Assembly (NCBI RefSeq): GCF_002803985.1
Contig: NZ_CP024963.1
Span: 744,001-808,000 of the forward strand
DNA: 64,000 bases
Origin: Williamsoniiplasma luminosum
GTDB lineage: Bacteria; Bacillota_I; Bacilli_A; Mycoplasmatales; Mycoplasmataceae
Reading direction: 5' to 3'
Below, one piece after another: positions 31,725-64,000 of this stretch. A model generated the notes under the pieces. That model had not been told where the DNA came from. It did not search any database and worked only from the letters and a program-made list of their open reading frames with translations. Each line of letters begins with the position of its first letter. Positions within the stretch are counted from its first letter, which is position 1. A program made the translations under genes and the position numbers.

Positions 31725-33401
31725 CTAGTTTACTGTTTTACTCAAAAATTGGGATTTACCAACATCACTGTAAATATGATTTTCTATTGGATTAAGTTCC
31801 ATTTCTAATCGTCTTGAATAAGGAGTCATAGCCTCGACGGTGTACTTAATTTCAACACCTGGTATCTCTGTTTTACTTCCAGTAACAATTGTGTGTCCAT
31901 TAGGTAGTCGATCCCACTCATGGAATCCACGTCCAAAACGAGTTCAAAAATTACGTCCATCATTTAAATATTTTATAGATTCGAATTCCTTTACCATAGG
32001 ATTTATGGCATCTAAATATTCTTGAATATGTATCGCTTCGTATTTAATTTCAATTTTGTTTGTTTGTTTTGATTTAGCCCCTTTGTATATACCATTAGCA
32101 GTTGGAATGAAAGTAACTTGAAATGAACCAGGTCTCCATTGTTTTGGTTCTTCATATTTTTTTTCAATGTGAACATCGTTAACAATAGGAGTTTTATAGT
32201 TATTGGCTTCTAAACGCTTTTGCACTTGTTCTGCATTTTTGAATGCTGACTCAATTGCTTTTTCAAAAAAAGCTTGAAGATCACCTCTAATTGAATTCTG
32301 ACTTGATTGTTTTGAATTAGCTTCTTTGTATTTGCCATTTGGTTCTGGAATAAAATCCACATAAAACAAACCAGGACTGTCTGGAGCAGAAGCTTTTATG
32401 TATGTTGGTTTAATTTTTACATCTTGAATTTTAATTTGTCCATTGTTGTTTTGCTTTACATATTCTTCAGCTTCTTTTTCTGTTTTTATATTATTAGCTC
32501 TTCGTAGTTCTTTTTCAATTGCCTTTTCAAAAAAGATTTGATGGTCATATTCAAATGTATTTTTCTTTGAAGGGTCTGACAAAGCTCCTTGATATTTTCC
32601 ACCAGGTTTTGGGCTAAAAACTACATAAAATGAACCTTGTGTTTCTAGAGTTGGTTTTATGTAAAATATCTCAATTTTGACATCTGTTATTTTGTCTGGT
32701 TTGAAATCATTTATATAATCTTCGGCTTGTTTTTGGGTTTTGATTTCATTTGCATGTTTTTTTTCAAAAGCAATTTTATCATTAAATTCTGCTTGAATTC
32801 CAGGATCTTCAAATTTAATGATATTTAAATTTGAAGAGCGTGGAGCAGCTTCGCGATAAATTCCAGTTGGCGTTGGATTGAAAGCAGCTTGAAATGTACT
32901 TGTAGCATTAGGAAGAGGTGTTGTGTAAGCATTGGTAATGTCAACATCTTTAATGTTTGGTTTTTCATAATGGTCAGCGGCTGAACGGGTTTTAATTTCA
33001 TTGGCATAATTAAGTTCTTCAGCAATTGCTGCTTCAAATGCTGTTTGAACATCATATTCAATAACATTATTGGATGAACCAATTGGTCATGCACCACTAT
33101 ATTTTTCATTAGCAGTTGGTGTAAAAATCACTTGGAATAAACCTTTGTTTGTTGAAGTTGGAGATGTGTAATTTAATGCAATGTCAACATGTTCAATTTT
33201 AATTTCACCATTATCAAAAGTCTTTTTGTAATGATCAGCTTGTTTTTGAGTTGTTATTTGATTTGCTTGCTCAAGTTCTTTTTTAATTGCGTTTTGAAAA
33301 AGCAATTGTTCATTTTTTGTTGGATTACCACAAGCAACAACACTTGTAGCACTCCCTGCTAGCATTGATACACTGCCTAATAATATTAATAATTTTTTCA
33401 T
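31725..33401 (-). CDS. Lipoprotein L1 with tandem spiralin-like modules
   Basis: A 558-aa lipoprotein. The signal peptide ends in a lipobox (SVVAC, Cys24). The mature protein is built of about six tandem modules of 75-80 residues, each with a helix (like FQNAIKKELEQANQI), TQKQADHY, a strand with KIxxVxI, a Tyr-Pro segment and a strand like GLFQVIFTPTANEKYSGA. Equivalent blocks recur near residues 115, 195, 275, 355 and 440, and the last is divergent. The reading frame crosses TGA codons. This is a surface-exposed modular protein; binding or shielding is the likely role, and the ligand is unknown. It is the last gene of the run L2, RHH-like, L1, with AAAGGAGGT before the start. Confidence 0.8.
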
Positions 33402-33429
33402 AATGTTTTATACCTCCTTTAAAATGGTT

Positions 33430-33615
33430 TTAAATTTTATTAATTTTTCGTGTGTTTTCTTCTTTTTCATTATCATATTTCGAATCAATACAGTATTTAA
33501 TAACATTGCCGTTATTAGTGATGTATGTCATTGTTTTTAAATAATTCATTTTTGTTTTGAATTCCTTATATTGGTTTTCATTATCAAAATCGATTGTAAT
33601 TCTTTTTTTGATCAT
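33430..33615 (-). CDS. Small ribbon-helix-helix-like protein
   Basis: A 61-aa protein beginning MIKKRITIDFDNENQYKEFKTKM, a strand followed by an amphipathic helix, then NNGNVIKYCI, which could be the second helix of a ribbon-helix-helix DNA-binding fold. The tail is charged. The ribosome-binding site AAGGAGG is very strong. It sits between lipoproteins L2 (24 nt upstream) and L1 (28 nt downstream), so it is co-transcribed with them and may regulate the island. The fold is inferred from pattern alone. Confidence 0.55.
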   Translation of the reverse strand: MIKKRITIDFDNENQYKEFKTKMNYLKTMTYITNNGNVIKYCIDSKYDNEKEENTRKINKI

Positions 33616-33638
33616 TTTTTTCCTCCTTAATTTTATTT

Positions 33639-35672
33639 TTATTTTTTAGCAATCAATGTAAAATCAAACTTGCTATCATCAAATTTACCTGTTTCAAAAT
33701 CACCAAATTTGATTTTGAATAAGTCATTTTTAAGTTCCAATTGTAAAGTTGTTCATGAAACATCTTGACTGCTTTTTACACGTAATCCGGGTTCCAGTTT
33801 ATCTCTTTCTGCAAGTCAAAACGATCTCTCATTGTCATTATTGTTTGAAGATTTTTGACTATAATCTAAACTAAAAGTTGATGTCCCAACTAATTGACTT
33901 ATAAAATGTTCTTCTTTCATTTTTTTAACAGTACCATTACCATCATCAATGTTTAAATTTAAACCATCTGTAATAAGTTTAGAATTGGGTTTATCTTTAA
34001 TGAAAGTTTTATCTGATGGTAAATTTTTTCAGTAATTTCAAATGTTGAAATTTTTGTCAATTTCTTGACCTTTTTCATCAAGTGGTTTACCCGTCATATA
34101 GAACAATAATCCTTTTTGACCCATAATAGAAGTTGAATTTAGCTCATCAATATCAGTTGGTTTAATTCCATAGAAGCGGTGGAAAACATCTAAACTTTTT
34201 TTAGCACCATTATGATATGCTTTAAAAATTTGACCATTAACATCATTTTCATGTGTTGATTTTTTATCAACAGAAACTGCTATGTCAATATTAATATCAT
34301 TCAAGTTTTGACTATAACCATTAGATAGGTGAAATTGAATTCCTTTAAATGTAACTAATTCATGATTTGCAATTGTTGGTTTGATATGAAAATTATTTGA
34401 ATTTTCAGTTTCAATTGATGCATGTTTAATAACTTCATCATACTCTTGGTCAAACTTATCCAAATATGCATTCTTTTGCGTTTTAAACGCAGTTTTTAAA
34501 TCCTCATATAAAGGATCGCTAGTAATAGTTGTAGTAGTACCTAAATATAGTTTTTGTCTTTCAATTTCTTTAGCATCAATGATGCCAGCTTCACTTCCTT
34601 GTAAAGTTGTCAGTTTTACATCTTTCAATTTCAATGAACCTATTTGACTGGTGTTTGACAAACTTCTAATTACATCATTTGAATCTTTTAATGATATATG
34701 AGTGGATTTTAGGATTGAATTATTAGATTTGTCAAAATATTTTGTTTTAATTTCTTTTTGAAGATTTTGAATTAAATTTTTTGTATAGTATGAGTTTAAT
34801 GCAGTTTCATATTTTTTGGTTTTTCCACCAACTATATCTTCAGCAGAAGCTCCATTTAAAGAGTTTTTATCAATTCATACTAAATCACTACCGTCTTTCA
34901 TTAAATCAGCAGCTAAACTTTTTTGAACTTTTTTAATAGTTTCAATAATAACCCCATCATCAGAAATAGTGATTGAAACTCTTGTTTTTAATTCTTTATT
35001 TACTTTTTGGTTTTCATAATCAAGATAACTATATTTAGCAGAATAATCTAATTCAATATTTGCTAAGAATTTATTTTTGGTTTCTTCACCATCAAGTGTT
35101 GTAAAGTTTAATTTGGCATTTTTATAGTCAAATTTAATATCTTCAATTCATGCATTACCCAATGACCCAATTAATACTTGATACATTTGTTGCCTAATTG
35201 ATTTTTTCATTTCACTCATCATCTTGATTGGGCTTAAAATAGTTTCAACACTTTTTACAAATCTTTGTTGTTCTACACCATCTAAATGTTTTTCATAAAA
35301 TGTTTTGTGTCCCCCATTAGTTGGGTTATCACTTCTTGGTTCTAAATTAATTATTGATGAAGGAGATTGTGATGCTTTGTTATAAATTCTTTCTAAATTT
35401 TCACGGCTGAAAAAATTAATGTCAATGTTGTTAGTTTCACTATCTACAAGATTGGCTTTATTACTCATTGGCGAAGCAACTTGCTGAATTCATTTACTTG
35501 TAACTTCATTTTCAAAATTTTTAATTAAAGCATTGATTTCATCTTTTCCTTGATCTGGTTTAGGTTTTTCTCCAGTGTTTGGGTTTTTAATTCCACTACC
35601 ACAAGAAATAACCGTTGCACTAATAGTTGTAATTAACGAGACAGTACTTAGTAATGTTAATAATTTTTTCAT
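33639..35672 (-). CDS. Lipoprotein L2, paralog of L3
   Basis: A 677-aa lipoprotein with signal peptide and lipobox (ATVISC, Cys24). It is paralogous to L3: shared blocks include WIEDIKFDYKNA near residue 176, SITISDDGVIIETI, DLVWIDKNSL, the block DVFHRFYGI, FYMTGKPLDEKG, KNFNIWNYW, and the C-terminal end FTLIAKK. It lacks most of the FIVAR-like helical insert of L3 (about 135 residues shorter). I do not recognise a functional family. No ribosome-binding site lies at normal distance before the ATG; a conserved purine-rich site is displaced upstream by a 70-nt hairpin (35684-35753). Confidence 0.78.
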
Positions 35673-35683
35673 TGTTTTAAATT

Positions 35684-35753
35684 TTTAACACCTAAAGCAA
35701 ATTTTACAAATAAGAAAATAATGCTTTTTTCTTAATGTGTTTTAGTTGTTAAA
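35684..35753 (-). promoter_or_regulatory. Foldback hairpin between ribosome-binding site and start of L2
   Basis: Arms 35684-35699 and 35738-35753 pair over 15 of 16 positions, counting one G-U. It separates an AGAAAGGAAAA site (35754-35765) from the ATG at 35672. In paralog L3 the same flanking sequence is uninterrupted: AAAAAGAAAAGGAATTTAAAA directly precedes the ATG. The L2 arrangement therefore looks like an insertion. When folded, the site would be about 14 nt from the start codon; unfolded, about 85 nt. Confidence 0.6.
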
Positions 35754-35845
35754 TTTTCCTTTCTTTTTTATTTTTTTAATGCATTTATATAATTCGTTTT
35801 GATAATTTTTGTAAATTAAAAGGTTATTTATAATTAATTCTTTAA

Positions 35846-37222
35846 TTATAAAATTTCATCTTTTTTATCAAATATAGTATCTAAAACAGTTTCTAGATCA
35901 TTCGTTTTTAAATAACGTTGATCATTACGCTTATTGACTTCTCTGATTAATTTAGATTTCATTTCCTCTAATTTTTTATCAGAAACTAAATTTTCAGTTT
36001 TCTTATCTAAAGCAGAAATAATGTCTAAATATTCTAAAAATTCTGCTTTTAAATTACTTAATTCTTTTTGAATTTTAGCTTCATTTTGAGTTTTTTCTTG
36101 ATTTAATAATCAACGACTAGTTTCAATATCTTCTTTAGTAGATTTGATAATTTCGTCTTTAAATTCATCGAATTTTTCATTTGATACAAATAAATTATTT
36201 TGTTGATTTAAAGTTTTAAGTTCATTTTGTAAATTTGAAATGGTGTTTTTAAATTCGTCGAATTGTGTATTTGAAACAAATAGATCGGTTTGTTGATTTA
36301 GATTTTCGATACCTTCTTTAGTAGATTTAATAATTTCATTTTTAAATTCGTCGAATTGTGTATTTGAGACAAATGAATTGTTTTGTTGATTTAAAGTTTC
36401 GAGTTCATTTTGTAAATTTGAAAATTCATTTTCAAATTCATTAAATTTTGCTTTTGGTACAAATGAATTATTTTCCTCAGTCAAGGTTTTAATGTCATTA
36501 TTCAAATTTAAAATTTCATCTTCAACATCTTGTATTTCTGAATTAATGTTTTTAAATCGATCTTCTAAATTCATCGAATCTAAGAATTCTTTTTTAAATA
36601 CTTCTAAATCTGAAGTTTTAATAGAATTAGATATTTCGCTTTTCAATTTTTCAATATTTTCTTGAGTTGCAGAATAATGCGATTCTAATAGATCTATCGT
36701 TTTTTTGATATCCTTGTTATGAATTTTAATTTCTTTATCGATGTCTTTTTGTAAGCTTTCTTTAAAAGTGCTAAAAGCTTTTTTGATATTATTTGTTAAT
36801 TCATTTTCAAGTTTTTTGGTTAATACATCATTGGCTTCTTTAGCTTTTAAATTGAATAAATCTAGTTCCTTTAACAAATTACTATGTTGTTGTTTTAAGT
36901 TGATATCAAGATATTCTTTTAATGCCTTCTCATTATCAGATAAGGAATTAAGTGAGGAATCTAACAAATATTTTTCTTTCAACTTTTCTCAAACTTGTTC
37001 TTTAAACTTTTCTTTACTTGGATTAGTTGAAGGTTGAGATGATGTTTTAGAAATATTATCTGTATTAGTTTGAACAGTATGTTCAGGTTTTTTAACTAAT
37101 TCAGTGATCATTTTTTCTAAGTTGTTGATTTTATCGTTAAAAAGATTTGCTATTTTACTTAAATCGTCTGTATTTTTTGGTTGGGGTTTTGGTTCTTTTT
37201 CTGATTCTTTTGGTGAATTCAT
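35846..37222 (-). CDS. Cytoplasmic coiled-coil repeat protein
   Basis: A 458-aa protein without signal peptide or membrane segments. Residues 1-80 are polar and Pro/Ser/Thr-rich; the remainder is almost entirely charged heptad-like helix. Residues about 254-375 hold four tandem repeats of about 30 residues, each starting FVSNTQFDEFKN or a variant and continuing NLQNELETLNQQNN. I chose the ATG at 37222 because AAGGAGATTCAC precedes it; the in-frame ATG at 37240 has no site. It follows the ABC ATPase gene by 99 nt and precedes lipoprotein L2. A scaffold or tether role is inference. Confidence 0.7.
36110..36463 (-). repeat. Tandem 30-residue coding repeats in the coiled-coil gene
   Basis: Four imperfect tandem units of roughly 90 bp encoding F-V-x-N/K-x-x-F-x-E-F...L-N-Q-Q-N. 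The second and third are nearly identical at their starts, so unit-number variation by recombination or slippage is possible. Confidence 0.65.
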
Positions 37223-37321
37223 GTGAATCTCCTTGTTCATTTTGGGTTTTATATACTCTTTTTAGTGTTTTTATTAACTAAAGTTGTGTATTGTTGTTGT
37301 TTGTAATTCAATTCAAAATTG

Positions 37322-38941
37322 TTATTTATGTTTATTTGAAGTTTTGTTTAATCTATTTCTAATTTCATCAATTCGATTTTGAAGAATTTGATTTTCATTA
37401 CAATTTAATTTAATTGTTGCAGTTTGAGCTTCATTAATTTCAGAAATGTTTTGAGCAGTTGAAACTTTTGTGACTTTTGGCAATTTTGGAACCTTTGAAG
37501 TTGGTAAAACCTTTGGTGTATCTACAACTTTGTCAATTTTGGAAACTTTTTTTGCATTAACTACTTTTGATTGCGATTTTTGTTTTGGTTTGGATTGTGT
37601 TTTTGGTTGGGATTGCGTTTTTGGTTTAGATTGCAATTTTTGTACAAGTTCCGCTTTTGCTTTTGCTTGTAATTTTGCTAAATTACTTTCTTTTTCTTGT
37701 TGTAAAAGTATAGAGTCAATATCGGCTTCATCAGTGTCGTTAAAATATCCGTTTTCTTTTAAATTAGTAACTAAAGTTATTAATGAATCTAAATCGTTTT
37801 CTTGATCAAAAATTTGATTTAGAATTTGTTCATTTGGGTTTTCTTCTTGTTGTTCTAAATTAATATCTTTTGATTCATCAGACAGCTGTACATCATCAAT
37901 TGATGGAACATTTTCGACATACACTTGACCAGCATTGTTTTCCAATTTGAAAATTGGTGCATATTTAGGAATGTGTGGTTGTTCTTTATCTTTGAGGGCT
38001 TTTTGAATTTCGTCAATATTAATTTGTTGAGAAGTGACAGTTTTGACTTTAATATTCACTGAATTTAAAATTCCTAAATCATTAAAAGTTTGATGTTTTT
38101 TTAAACCGATAATAATGCTATCTTCATTTGGTTTGGGTTGAAAAGTGAGAATATCATTTTCGTTTAAAATTTTTTCAACTAATTCTAAATCGACATTTTG
38201 TTCAAAATAGACTTTGATTTTTTTGTATAATCCTAATTCTTTTTTAGTCCCAGCAAATAATAATTGTCCTCTTTCTAAAATAATAAAGTTGTCAATATTG
38301 TCATAAACTTCATTAATGTTATGAACAACTAAAATAATTGTGCAATTAGTTGTGGCAATAAATTCGTTCATAATGTCATAAGTTTTATTACGTCAATTTG
38401 AATCTAAGTTGGAACCTGGTTCATCTAAAATCATAATTTCAGGTTCTTTAATAAAACATATAATTAGATTCATCCGATTTTTCATTCCTCATGAAAAATC
38501 TCTTAAAGCTTTATCTTTGGATGTTCATAAATCAAATTTTTTTAATCAATATTCAATTCTATCTTTGGCAAGATTTTGATCAATTCCCATAACGTTGCAA
38601 ATATTACTTAAAAAGGCATATGCAGAAATAGGATACAAGGAGAAATCCATTTGGGTATAAAACCCAATTTTAGAATTAATTTCAATCGAATTAAATTTTT
38701 TGCGATCTTTACCTGTAATATAAATATTTCCTTTATAACTTAAAGTAGCACCTAATAATGAATTGATAAAAACACTTTTTCCCGAACCACTACTACCTAA
38801 AATTGCATTAATTTTACCTTTCTCAATTTCAAATGAAAAAGGACCAATATTAATGTCTTTAAATTTTTTATGAAAATTCCTTACGACAATTTCATATTTA
38901 TTTAAATCTTGTACTTCTTTGATGTTTGTTTTTCTTATCAT
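37322..38941 (-). CDS. ABC transporter ATPase with long C-terminal tail
   Basis: A 539-aa protein. Residues 15-220 form an ABC ATPase domain: Walker A GSSGSGKS (49-56), signature position FSWGM (149-153) instead of LSGGQ, Walker B IMILDEP (169-175) and switch His207 in LVVHN. A roughly 320-residue extension is unusual: a folded-looking part (IYFEQNVDLELVEKILNEN), an acidic stretch, then Lys/Gln/Pro/Ser-rich repeats (PKTQSKPKQKSQSK, near 430-450) and a final helix. The domain resembles exporter-type ATPases that partner ABC-2 permeases, and the island's permease (41642-43447) is the obvious partner. AAGGAGGA precedes the start. Confidence 0.8.
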
Positions 38942-39047
38942 TTTAATTCCTCCTTATCTATTAAATGAATTTTGATAAAAATTTGGCTTTTGATCTAAAA
39001 GAGCTAATTTTATCACTTAAATTTTTATAATTTTGCTAAATACACAA

Positions 39048-41597
39048 CTATTTTTTTCCAATTAATGTGTATGTCATATTTCCAGAATTGTGGCATGTAG
39101 CTCAATCATTTTTATTGAATCTTTCTCCAATTTTGATATTAAATAAGTCATTTCTAATAGTAAATTCAATGGATTGTCTATATTGAGGCCCAGCTGCTGG
39201 CATTAACACAAGCCCAGGTTTAAGATCTTTTGGTTTTTCATCTATTTTATATGTATTTAAATTGTCTCAACCTTGTGGATTTGTTTGTTTTCATTGAAAA
39301 TCAAATTCAGAAGATCCGATTAATTTGCTAAATAAATATTCGTTTCAAATTTGTTTAGCGTTTTCTACTGCAGAATTCACTCGTAAATTTAAAGCCTGAT
39401 TAAAAATTGATTTTCCTAATGGTTCACGTTTTCCGTTTAAAAAACTTTGTTTTTCAGGGATTTTTGCTCAATAATCTCAAATGTTAAAGTTTTTTATAGC
39501 TTCAATTTCTTTACCATTTTCATCAAGAGGTTTTCCTGTCATATTAAACACTAAAGCTTTTTGTCTTTCAGGGGTTAAATTGTCAATCTCAGCTTTTGAG
39601 ATTCCGTAAAATCTATGAAATACATCTAAATTATGTTTAATACCTTTGTAGTATGCTGCAAATGCATGTCCCTCAACTGTTTCTTCTTTCATCGAAGTTT
39701 TATCAACTGCAAGAGCTAAGTCGATTGAAATTGGATTTAATTCTTGTTTATACCCATTTGGTGTAATAAAACTCATACCTTGAATTTTCACTTGTTCATG
39801 TTTAACAATAGTTTTTTGTAGGTCCGACATATTTGCTGGTTCTTTAGTATCACCACTAGCATCTTTAACAACTTTGCTGTAATCTTCTGTTATAAATTTT
39901 GATGTATATGATTTTTTACTGTTTTCAAATGTCTTTTTTAAATCATTATATAAAGTTTTATTTTGTGCCTTAGTTCCATCAACTAAGGTTTTTTCAGCTC
40001 ATCCACCAAGTCCTGGTGTTGATACACCAACATTACCTAAATATACTTGTTGTCTTTCTAGTTCTCCAGCTTGAATGACACCGTTTTGACCGTTTGGTTG
40101 GTTGTAGAATTTAGTCATTTTGATTGTTTTTAAATTCATTGCCCCTAATCGACTTTTTTCTAACATGTCCTTATCACCAATTGGTTTAATTGAGTTGGCG
40201 ATTGGTTCAATATTTTTTAAAATTGGACTTTCACTTTTTCTAAAGTAATCTTCAACAATTTTTTTTGGAAGATCAGCACTTAATTTATCCTTGTAATATT
40301 TTGCTAATGCAGCTTTATATTTATTGTTATTACCACCAATAATATCAGCATCTGTTATTTCTGGATAGGTACTTTTTAAACTATTTTGATCAATTCACAC
40401 TAAAGGATTTCCACTCTTCATTAAGTTACCGGCTAAAGTTTTATGAACATCATTAATAGTTTCAATAAAGACTTGGTCATCAGAAATTATAATTCTAATT
40501 TTTCCACTTAAGTTTACTGATTGAACTGCATCTTCAGCATCATTATATTTATATTTACTTGAGTAATCTAAAGTAATATTTGCTATAAATTTTTCTTCAG
40601 CTCTAAGTGTTGGATTATTTACATATTGGATTTGTGCATTTTGGTAATCGAATTTAATATCTTCAATTCAATTATTTTGAAACTTACCAAGTATTATTTG
40701 ATAAGTTTGCATACTAATTGCACTTTTTAATGTTTTCATTTTTGTAATTGGGTCTAGTAGATTTTCGATGTTATTTCGAAAAGCTGTATTATTACCTTCA
40801 GTTAAAATTGAGAAAAAATTAAATGTATTTTCTTCATCTTTTACATTGTTAAAATCAACTACTGCTTGATCTAATATTTTTTTTGCTCCTTGTGCTGAAG
40901 CTTCTTCTGCAACTGCAATCGCTTTATCAATTGCTGCTTGCAAAATATTTTTAGCACTTTGTGGTTTATTTACACCAACTTTTAAAGCTTGTTCTGCGGT
41001 GGTAATTGATATTTTTAATTCTTCTAAGTTTGAAGATCTTGTTGAAATTTGCTCACTAGAAAGATCACTAAATGTTGTAATTATTGCTTTTGCAGAAACT
41101 ATATTTGTTGCAATTTTTGGTTCATCAGGAGAATCATAAAATTTTTGAATTTCTTCCACTAATTTCTTTTTATTTGCTTCAGCACCAGTTGGATTACTCA
41201 ATTGTTCTTCGGCCTTTTCAATTGCTGTTTGTAGCGCATCAAATGCTACTTGAGTTTTGTTACCTTTTACAATTGCTTTAGCTTCGACAATTTTTGCATT
41301 CAAAGCACTTAAATCATAAACTTCTTTTAGATTTCTTTTGGTGAAAAAAGAGTACTCGTTAGCTACGGCTTCTTCTGCAAAAAAACCTGCTTTATAAGTC
41401 ATTGGCCTTGAAATTTCATCATTTCATTTAGATGCTACTTCATTTTTTAATTTCTCAATCAAGGCTCTGGTTTCTTCTTTTGCATCAGGGACTGCTACTG
41501 GTGGTTTTTTATCTTTATCACCACCACAAGCAACAACTGTGGCACTAGTGGCTGCAACTAATGAAATTGCACCTAGTAATGTTAATAATTTTTTCAT
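39048..41597 (-). CDS. Lipoprotein L3 with FIVAR-like insert
   Basis: An 849-aa lipoprotein, lipobox ATVVAC (Cys24). After residue 66 it has a helical insert up to about residue 300 with repeated patterns such as AFDALQTAIEKAEEQLSNP and ILQAAIDKAIAVAEEA, resembling FIVAR modules of adhesins. Beyond residue 310 it aligns with L2: WIEDIKFDYQNA, IIISDDQVFIETI, LVWIDQNSL, LDVFHRFYGI, VFNMTGKPLDENG, FNIWDYW and the end YTLIGKK. It lies between the ABC permease (44-nt gap) and the ABC ATPase (106-nt gap), so it is physically embedded in the transporter genes. Function unknown; host-surface contact or substrate capture are both possible. Confidence 0.8.
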
Positions 41598-41641
41598 TTT
41601 TAAATTCCTTTTCTTTTTTATTTTTTTATTTTTTTTATTGG

Positions 41642-43447
41642 TTATTTGAAATCATATTTTCTAAATCTGAATAGTGCAATTGTGAAACTCAATATACTAA
41701 TTCCTAATAAAATCGCAAGATAATATCAAGGTTTCATATAATTATTTGTTGTGTCTTTAGCGATTATTCCTTCTGAATCGAGTTTGATATTATATTCGGG
41801 GTATCCTAAAAACATATTTTTTTGATTTTCTAAATATATTTTCGAATCTGAAGCTGGAGCGAACCAAATGTCTTCATAATAGAAACCTAGGTTTTTTGTA
41901 TAGAACATTCATAGGCCATTGTATAAATTAAAATATGAGAGATATTCCATGGTTTTACGACCTTTTTCATATTCTGATCAGTCACCTTTATTATGTGCGA
42001 CTGGAGTTGTTGACATTATTAAATAGTTGCTAGAATATTTAATAAAGTATTTTTCTAAAATACCGGCAATGTACATTAATTTAAAATTCATTTTTTGTTT
42101 AATGAAATCATCAATGTTACTAAATTTAAATCCATCTCCCGGATTACCTCTGATTGTGTAGTTATAAAATGATTCAACATCCTCTTTTTTTAAGGCATAT
42201 TTTTTTTCTTTTTCATTTTCAGGTTTGATATTTTCTAAATAACTATTTGTCATACCTGCTTTTAAAAAGAAGAAATCTTTGAATAAATCATATTTTTCAT
42301 ATTGCACATTATCTGAAAAATAATTGGTTATTTCTTTGGTGAAATTTCTTAAATCCAGCAAAATGTTTTTGGTTTTATCGTCTTCATTATTTTTTATCAA
42401 TTCATCCAATTCATTTTCAGAAATAAATGTATTGTTTAAAGTCAATTGAATATTAAATAAGTTATTTCTTTTTCAACTTTTTGGAACTGTTTCATCTCTT
42501 AATGGTTTTTCAAATAATTTGGCATTAGTTTCTTTAAGAACTACGGGATTGTGATTGATTAATCCTAAACCTGATCAGATTTTAATTCGTGAATCAATCG
42601 AATCTTTAGAGCTGAAGTCATCTAAATTTAATTTAGATTCGATAAATGAATCATAAACATATTTAGATAAATGTTTATATTTAATATTGCCTTTGGCAAT
42701 ATTATCATTTAGCGTATAAGCATCATAAACATCATTAACTTTAAGAATTTGACCATTTTGAAATGTGACTGTATAACTTTTTTCACTTAATTTAACAAAC
42801 GACATTGGAATATTTGCGATGAATGTTAATGCTAATAAAAGCGTGCAAATAATGGTTGTTGTTTGTAAAGTAAAAATAAAAATTAAACACATAATGAAGT
42901 TAGTCAAAAAGAATATTGCAATTATTGAATATATCAAATAACAAACCGTCATTCTTAAAATAAACATGTCATATTTAAAAAGTGTGCAAAATGCGTAAAA
43001 CATATTAATAACAAGAAAACTTACTACAATATTGACAATCATGACAAGCAGAATAAGGATATATTGAGCTAGAAAGAATCTGACTCGACTAACTTGATTA
43101 GTTAAAACAATATAAGTTGTTTTATCTTCAAAATTTTTGTTAAAGAAGAATTGAACCATTCTTAATATAAAGACAAACATTAAACAGCAAACAAAGAATA
43201 AGATAAAAAAGTTAAATATCACAACTTGTTGAGCACCGCTTTTAGTAAAAGCTAATAATACACCAATAATGATTGACACGATTAATGTTGAAATATTAAG
43301 GATGTAAAACAAGAGTTCTTTAATAATGCTCTTAAAACTAAATTTGATCAATTTTAAAAATGGTATAAGTTTAAATTTGATCAATTTCTCTTCAACATTT
43401 ATATCCTTGGGCATTTCGATTAAGTTTCTAGAAATTTTATTTTTCAT
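41642..43447 (-). CDS. ABC-2-type membrane permease with large external domain
   Basis: A 601-aa protein. Residues about 40-225 hold six hydrophobic segments; the segment NKNFEDKTTYIVLTNQVSRVRFFLAQYILILL resembles the coupling region of ABC-2 exporters. A polar region of about 350 residues (230-575) follows, probably extracellular, and a final membrane helix YYLAILLGISILSLTIALF ends the protein. I chose the ATG at 43447 with AAAGGA upstream. Located between lipoproteins L4 and L3, it is the natural partner of the tailed ATPase at 37322. Confidence 0.75.
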
Positions 43448-43480
43448 TATTTTCACATCCTTTCATGTTGTGCAAAATCA

Positions 43481-45172
43481 TTATTCATCTTCTGTAATCG
43501 GTGGAACCTTAACTAATTTAACCGAAAACACTTTTGATGAAATTTTATATTTATCATCAGTTTGTCTCTGAAGTAAAATCGCATTATAAAATTGTTGACT
43601 ACCTGGAAAAGTATCTTTTTTAATTACACTAATAACATCTTTAATTTTGGTCAATTCTTTTAGAGTATTGGTTTTATTTGATAACTCTAATGTCTTTTTA
43701 ATCGCTGCTAATCCTTCTTTATCTTGTTTAAAAAATAAGACCTTATCGTTGGTTTTAAAATCATTGACTCATTTAGAACCGAACTTTGTTGTTGAACGCA
43801 TTAATCCATTTGGATTTCAATTTTCGTCATCAATAGGTTTTATGAATTCCTTTATTTGCTTTTGAAATTGTTGTTTTTCATCATATTTAGGTTCACCAAC
43901 TTCTTCTCATGGATCTTCTTCACCAAGAGGAGGTTGAGCTTCTGGTATTCGAATAATTCATGGACTAGTAAATTTTGTATCAAGTAAATATTGACCTTGC
44001 ATAGTTTTAAATTTAGAATTATCTAATTTTTCTCCAAACTTTAAGAATTGAGGAAGTACTAACATATCATCACCAATTCTTTTTTCAAAGATGTTTCATT
44101 CAAGTGATTGTTCAGCAGAATTATCTAATTGAAGTAAATTAACTGGTAAATTCACAGTCTTATTAACATCTTTATTAAATGAATAACCTATGTATTCATT
44201 TGGCTTTATGATTATTTTTGATATCAAACTTCAATATTTAGAATCATTGGGTAAATTATTATATGGACCAATTGATTCTCCAGGATCTCAATTTCCTAAT
44301 TCATCAAATTTAATAGCCTCTTTTTGTCCTAATGAAGTTTTTGTAATTCTTTTCTTTATTTCACGAAGATATTCATCAGCATTATTAAACTCTAATTTTT
44401 GTGTTTTTAATTCTTCTTTAAATTGATCAATGTCGTTTTTTGTAAGTTCGATAGGTTTCCAAACACGACCACCAGTAAAGGAATAAATCTTATTTGGATC
44501 AACATCATTTGCAAACTTAAATGCATCACTTGTCAATCCGATTGTTGCCTTAAAAGAAAAAGTTATTTCTTCTCTTTCTCCTGCTTTGCTATTAGTCTTT
44601 ATTATTGATTGATCTTGAAATTGGAATTCTGAAATTTTTCCAAAACCAAGCCCCTCACCAGCAGCGCCCGGCATAGGACGATTTTCACCAATACCAAACT
44701 TTGTTTCTACTAATGATTTGTTTTTATATGCTGTGTCTTTTAGATGTTTTACTACTCCATCAACAGCTTCTTTTATTTTGGCCTGGGTGATTTCTCTTGG
44801 TTCTTGAGGTTTGTTATTTCCAAACTCATATTCTATAGTTGTATTACCAGAATAAATAAAATTATTCTTATTAGAGGCATTACCTTTAAATGCGATGGTT
44901 TGTTTACCCGTTGTTGTTATACCCGGTTCTTGAATACTTATAATTTCTACTGTAATTCCACCTTCAATATCAATTTTTTGGTCTACAATTAATTTTTCTA
45001 ATTTTTCTTTTTCTCAAGCTTTATTTTCCTCACCAAATTTTGAAGCTAGTGCAAACAATGTTTTATTAATAGTTGCAATATCAACCCCTGTTGGTTGTGT
45101 ACAAGCAACAACATTAGTTGATATCGTGGTCGTTAAACCTACAATACTAAGAATGGCTAATAATTTTTTCAT
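43481..45172 (-). CDS. Lipoprotein L4
   Basis: A 563-aa lipoprotein with lipobox TNVVAC (Cys24). Mature protein is polar with no recognised domain; blocks such as EITFSFKATIGLTSDAFKFAN and DPNKIYSFTGGRVWKPIEL suggest beta-rich modules. It does not align clearly with L1-L3. It is the first gene of the island, preceded by AGGGAAGGA and a 570-bp promoter region, and ends 34 nt before the ABC permease, so it is probably a dedicated external component. Confidence 0.75.
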
Positions 45173-62976: not shown

Positions 62977-64000
62977 CTATCATTCTGGAAAATTAGGTAA
63001 ATTTTCTTCTGTTAAACCTGATTCAAATGAAAAGTTATAACAATCATAAACATTATCTACATTTCAGCTTTTTAAATCTTGATTAAATGCTTTTGCATAT
63101 CTAAACATACTAGTCATATTTTTCACATTTAGAGTATCTCACCCTGAAATATTTCTATTAAATATTGCTGCTGCTTCAAACATCCCCTCCATTGTTGTTA
63201 CTTTAGAAGTGTTTCAATTTGAAATATCACCATCAAATGCTGATGCATCTTTAAACATTTCTTTCATATCAGTTACTTTTGAAACGTTTCAAACATCACC
63301 AACAGTATTTATGTCTTTATTAAATGAATTTGTACCTTTAAACATACTAGACATATTTGTGACTTTTGAAGTGTTCCAGTTGGTAATATCAGCATTAAAT
63401 ACTCTTGCATTTTCGAACATTCCAGACATATTAGTTACATTTGAAGTGTTTCAATGATTGTCTACAGTGTTTATGTTTCTATTAAATTTGTTTGTGCCCT
63501 TAAACATACTAGACATATTTGTGACTTTTGAAGTGTTCCAGTTGGTAATATCAGCATTAAATGCTTTTGCATTTTCGAACATAGAACTCATATCAGTTAC
63601 ATTTGAAGTGTTTCAGTTGGTAATATCAGCATTAAATACTCTTGCATTTGAGAACATTCCAGACATATCAGTTACATTTGAAGTGTTTCAATGATCGTCT
63701 ACAGTGTTTATGTTTCTATTAAATTTGTTTGCACCTTTAAACATGCTAGACATATCAGTTACATTTGAAGTGTTTCAATTTGAAATATCAACATTAAATG
63801 ATTGTGCATTTTGAAACATAGATCCCATATTTTTTACTTCTAAAGTATCTCAATTTGAAATGTTACCATTAAATTTCTTTGCCCCATCAAACATCATGGT
63901 CATATCAGTTACATTTGAGGTGTCTCATATTTTATCTTTTCTTGTTAAATCTTGATTAAATGATTCTGCATCTTGAAACATTAGTTGCATTTCAGTTACA
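62977..64000 (-). CDS. DUF285/BspA-like repeat surface protein (5' end outside window)
   Basis: Only the last 340 residues are present. They consist of about 13 tandem units of 25 or so residues of the type [21 protein letters not shown], characteristic of DUF285 repeats that fold as BspA-like leucine-rich solenoids. Units alternate between a short form and one with an insert [12 protein letters not shown]. The end is ENLPNFPEW. Such proteins are abundant, variable surface proteins in mollicutes with proposed adhesion or immune-evasion roles. The plus-strand reading frames over this region are shadows of the repeats. Confidence 0.88.
63200..63960 (-). repeat. DUF285 coding tandem repeats
   Basis: Imperfect units of about 75 bp, some longer with a 15-bp insert. 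Blocks such as 63360-63450 and 63520-63700 are nearly identical, allowing recombination that changes repeat number. Confidence 0.7.

Follow-up and report, generated by a model that had tools for sequence, protein, structure and literature searches.

In this insect-type relative of the mycoplasmas, the surface lipoprotein gene L2 carries, between a Shine-Dalgarno (SD) site and its ATG, a foldback insert of about 72 nt, which is real and has so far been seen in this genome alone. Because the predicted folding of this insert is close to chance, an ordinary small insertion is more likely than a regulatory switch. We give slightly better than even chances to the reading that the insertion is lineage-specific and that L2 initiates without the displaced SD site.

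Genomic setting

The window, i.e., the whole stretch of 64,000 nt that was analysed, covers positions 744001-808000 of a 1.03-Mb mollicute genome in which TGA is read as tryptophan. L3, a paralog of L2 with 42% identity across the shared part, lies at 39048-41597, and a coiled-coil-like protein and an ABC transporter ATPase are encoded in the interval between the two genes. Orthologs of the L2 protein show 31-45% identity; by protein profile, the relatives among named genomes are Mesoplasma seiffertii and M. grammopterae, with no near strain. The features of the L2 leader, together with the SD site of L3 for comparison, are listed in Table 1.

On the minus strand, four lipoprotein genes are arrayed at 31725-45172 around the ABC transporter ATPase, which has a long C-terminal extension, and the coiled-coil protein. 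The order of a membrane protein and then a lipoprotein of the L2 family is found again in relatives, and a similar C-terminal stretch precedes the lipoprotein gene in L012, L013, L014 and L022. The interval that separates L2 from the next lipoprotein gene contains an ORF of 61 aa with a strong SD, AAGGAGG (33430-33615, minus strand). Elsewhere in the window, two related membrane proteins have mechanical starts (26366 and 27374, minus strand) with no SD site; AGGTGG or GGAGGT is found just inside both ORFs, which suggests that the true starts lie a few codons downstream. The minus-strand protein at 62977-63990 contains repeats of one recurring type, which presumably resemble BspA-like surface proteins.

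Table 1. Features of the L2 leader and its surroundings (positions within the window)
Feature	Positions	Strand	Remarks
L2 lipoprotein gene	33639..35672	minus	677 aa, table 4; signal peptide matches NCBIfam LP_plasma
L2 codons 4-9 (UUAUUAACAUUACUAAG)	35647..35663	minus	predicted competitor for the right arm (fold prediction)
Insert	35677..35748	minus	72 nt including one direct-repeat copy; deduced by comparing the leaders of L2 and L3
Direct repeat AAAATTTAA, right copy	35677..35685	minus	9 nt; L2/L3 leader comparison
Right arm TGCTTTAGGTGTTAAA	35684..35699	minus	pairs with the left arm (35738..35753)
AGGTG	35689..35693	minus	weak alternative SD, 16 nt from ATG; -5.1 kcal/mol
TAAAAT	35701..35706	minus	-10-like box in the insert, putative leader of ~21-22 nt; fits Mesoplasma florum TAWAAT (PMC7745072)
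Inner A/U-rich hairpin	35711..35734	minus	8 bp; in every predicted fold, pair probability 0.9-1.0
Left arm TTTAACAACTAAAACA	35738..35753	minus	14/16 pairs on the mRNA strand, 15/16 on the plus strand
Direct repeat AAAATTTAA, left copy	35749..35757	minus	9 nt; L2/L3 leader comparison
Displaced SD AGAAAGGA	35757..35764	minus	strong, 84 nt upstream of the L2 ATG; hybridisation -9.0 kcal/mol
L3 SD site AGAAAAGGA	41606..41614	minus	AAAAGGA, uninterrupted comparison; 8 nt before the L3 ATG (41597)

An insert between the SD site and the start codon

The L2 leader reads AAGAAAGGAAAATTTAACAAC...GGTGTTAAAAATTTAAAACA-ATG on the minus strand. SD hybridisation energies were calculated against the genome's own 16S tail, AUCACCUCCUUUCU. 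Within the window, 26 of 34 starts have an SD of -3.8 kcal/mol or lower at ordinary spacing; L2 is among the starts that do not, its AGGUG (-5.1 kcal/mol) sitting 16 nt away. By inspection of the 25 starts of the form ATGAAAAAATTATTA in this genome, L2 alone was seen to have a good site so distant. Across the family (60 genomes), 95 occurrences of AGAAAGGA lie 2-14 nt ahead of ATGAAAAAATTA, and only 3, near 2173 such starts, lie 62-92 nt ahead of it; the other two of these three distant cases carry a closer purine-rich site too. Ordinary mollicute lipoprotein leaders have the same SD site and signal-peptide start as L2 and differ from it in spacing, with 95 ordinary cases in the 60 genomes set against the displaced site of L2. 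Because such spacing is unusual across the 60 genomes, the displaced AGAAAGGA is probably the true former SD of L2. The sequence-only reading had placed this site 85 nt from the ATG; the displacement stands, and the measured distance is 84 nt.

That reading had also noted a purine-rich site 8 nt before the ATG of L3, which is borne out (AAAAGGA), and an insertion in L2 relative to L3 between site and ATG. When the flanks of L2 are joined at AAAATTTAA, they give TAAAAAAATAAAAAAGAAAGGAAAATTTAAAACA-ATG, whose alignment to the L3 leader needs two small gaps; the local score, 48, is attained in 1 of 1000 shuffles, a likeness beyond chance that supports the insertion. No other of the 25 lipoprotein leaders in this genome matches the joined flanks as well as L3 does (48, the next being 35). 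Since the match is so close, a gain of ~72 nt in this lineage would be the simplest history to account for the compared leaders. Five other genomes contain orthologs (L010, L011, L012, L013, L014 and L022), and the leaders of these are ordinary, with a site near the ATG.

Probable initiation without the displaced site

We propose that a lineage-specific insert of ~72 bp, which forms an imperfect inverted repeat rich in A/T, entered the SD-ATG spacer of an L3-like lipoprotein leader, and that L2 would still start at the same ATG while making no real use of the displaced SD. Initiation could then take one of several routes, namely the weak AGGUG 16 nt upstream, a short transcript started within the insert, or SD-independent initiation at the A/U-rich start. 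The hairpin would be a by-product of the inserted sequence, and its effect on L2 synthesis would be at most modest and probably a lowering one.

Initiation without the displaced SD is favoured because of the AGGUG, the TAAAAT box, and the data on SD sites and hairpins in a related mollicute, Mycoplasma pneumoniae, in which initiation works with or without an SD, SD strength is without effect on translation efficiency, and expression is lowered by hairpins near the start codon (PMC10568206). The loss of an SD should cost more here than in M. pneumoniae, because the SD rule holds both in this window (26/34) and in Mesoplasma florum, where an SD motif accompanies 84% of detected proteins (PMC7745072). 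Against the proposed initiation stand also the long spacing of AGGUG and the fact that the start of the short transcript is a predicted one.

Two further candidates for the start of translation were rejected. An earlier start of L2 is precluded by an in-frame TAA 15 nt upstream of the ATG; for an upstream ORF after the displaced SD, inspection by eye showed no ATG before that of L2, and the TTG and GTG codons soon meet stops.

Predicted folding and a possible split ribosome-binding site

In an alternative that we regard as unlikely, the displaced AGAAAGGA still serves L2, as the upstream half of a split ribosome-binding site in which a co-transcriptional hairpin cuts the SD-ATG distance from 84 to ~14 nt. 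The strength of the upstream AGAAAGGA and its rarity at such a distance (3 cases, with 2173 such starts in the 60 genomes) favour this arrangement, and a precedent exists in phage T4, whose genes 25 and 38 have split (accommodated) ribosome-binding sites (Nivinskas 1999; Malys and Nivinskas 2009; PMC3014915). In T4 as in L2, a foldable, lineage-specific sequence parts the SD from the ATG and can shorten the distance between them, and L2 shares with the T4 type a strong SD (-9.0 kcal/mol) too distant from the ATG (84 nt) for direct use. However, the T4 spacers of 22-27 nt are shortened to 5-11 nt, and the folded distance in L2 is greater than that in L3 (8 nt) or in T4 (5 and 11 nt). The T4 cases are backed by DMS probing, by mutants and by conservation among close T-even phages (PMC3014915), whereas L2 is known from its sequence and a weak predicted stem.

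The folds reported here were all predicted by a single program, and such predictions are uncertain at this A/T content. For the leader without coding sequence, the long stem was predicted with a probability of 0.98-0.99, which speaks for a split site, and the folded SD-ATG distance of ~14 nt given by the sequence-only reading is correct for this isolated leader. The spacer alone folds at -11.8 kcal/mol at 37 C, an energy matched by 48-51 of 1000 dinucleotide shuffles (~5%); energy and end closeness together are matched by just 20-23 of 1000 such shuffles, which is again in favour of a split site. Adding 24-36 nt of coding sequence lowered the long-stem probability to 0.01-0.3, and with 60-90 nt it was 0.02-0.7; in prediction, the long stem is lost from ~24 nt of coding sequence on, and the partner of the right arm becomes codons 4-9, a competition that weighs against the split site. 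The GGA of the displaced SD is itself paired in several of the predicted folds, which also argues against its use. With coding sequence included, the energy of the 161-nt mRNA stretch (-13.8 kcal/mol) is no better than that of shuffles (z 0.18), and the fold is weaker than that of the opposite strand (-18.8 kcal/mol).

The earlier count of 15/16 pairs with one G-U applies to the plus (antisense) strand. In the minus-strand transcript, the plus-strand G-U turns into an A-C mismatch, so that the mRNA pairs at 14/16 positions, with A-G and A-C as its two mismatches, a further point against the split site. The inverted-repeat search did not list the arms of the L2 leader. Support from covariation is absent, in that the orthologs have uninterrupted leaders and none of the 59 related genomes carries an insert in which compensatory arm changes might be seen.

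With the pairs counted on the wrong strand, a fold near chance and a coding region that competes for the right arm, the proposal that folding creates a functional start is unsupported. The same applies to a response to temperature, ligand or protein. A search for Rfam matches (RNA thermometer, riboswitch or other) gave nothing beyond two matches at chance level, both below gathering scores and located elsewhere in 33000-42000. Two-state pairing of the right arm would often be expected in A/T-rich RNA, and its prediction here is not evidence of a switch. We rate as quite improbable the fuller version of the split site, in which a foldback insertion has split the ribosome-binding site of a chromosomal gene, its own hairpin restores initiation over 84 nt, and competition by codons 4-9 makes a two-state start.

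A possible promoter within the insert

One of the routes named above, a transcript started within the insert, may also be taken as the main explanation, although we consider it distinctly unlikely that the TAAAAT at 35706-35701 gives rise to a transcript beginning near 35693 with a leader of ~21 nt that starts with AGGUG. It is unlikely to the same degree that the hairpin and the displaced SD both lie outside the main L2 mRNA, as this reading holds. Promoters of Mesoplasma florum lack a conserved -35 box and have the box TAWAAT, 6-7 nt after which the transcripts start (PMC7745072), and the box in the insert fits both the motif and the spacing. However, it has no TGN extension, TANAAT boxes occur at ~3 per kb on the minus strand, a perfect TATAAT is present also at 35850-35845, upstream of the L2 leader, and a sigma-70-type promoter scan found no minus-strand site here. 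An invertible promoter is implausible, as the inverted arms enclose just 38 nt.

Where the upstream coiled-coil gene ends, an inverted repeat with perfect 10-bp arms of A/T only, TTATAATTAA-AGAA-TTAATTATAA (35828-35851, minus strand), overlaps both the stop codon of that gene and the perfect TATAAT; this repeat may serve as a terminator or belong to a promoter for L2.

Origin of the insert and the opposite strand

The sequence-only reading had offered a miniature transposon, and we hold it to be very improbable that the insert is a miniature inverted-repeat transposon (MITE), or what is left of a decayed insertion sequence, with a transposase that recognises it and AAAATTTAA as target duplication. 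This explanation concerns origin and is compatible with the other models of the L2 start. Its anatomical support is weak: direct repeats flank an inverted repeat, and the leader of the paralog L3 is uninterrupted. Like MITEs, the insert is a short non-coding inverted repeat with short flanking direct repeats; in contrast to them, it is single-copy, its ends are imperfect (14/16 arms), and no parent element was found. A second copy was sought in the genome itself and in 59 related genomes of the family, with short A/T-rich matches as the sole result. The direct repeat is weak evidence for transposition, because repeats of at least 8 nt arise in 600 of 2000 shuffled spacers (30%). In addition, the right inverted end does not exactly meet the direct repeat, and the ends were matched to no insertion sequence. 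A literature search for looped spacers and mollicute MITEs yielded nothing directly applicable.

It is extremely improbable that the hairpin acts on the plus strand, e.g., as an A/T-rich terminator for antisense transcription: 15/16 pairs, -18.8 kcal/mol for the 161-nt plus-strand fold and the T-rich sequence that follows (~35754-35778) would suit such a role, but the T run simply complements the purine-rich SD region, no plus-strand gene is evident here, a terminator scan found none, and the z value of that fold is only -1.07.

Significance

If the displaced site plays no part in the start of L2, the leader is an example of an ordinary insertion that mimics a regulatory element, with a fold that had been counted on the wrong strand. 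If, on the other hand, the split site works, the T4 arrangement would be known from a cellular gene too, with a spacer three times as long, and L2 would be an example of how an insertion into a leader can be tolerated.
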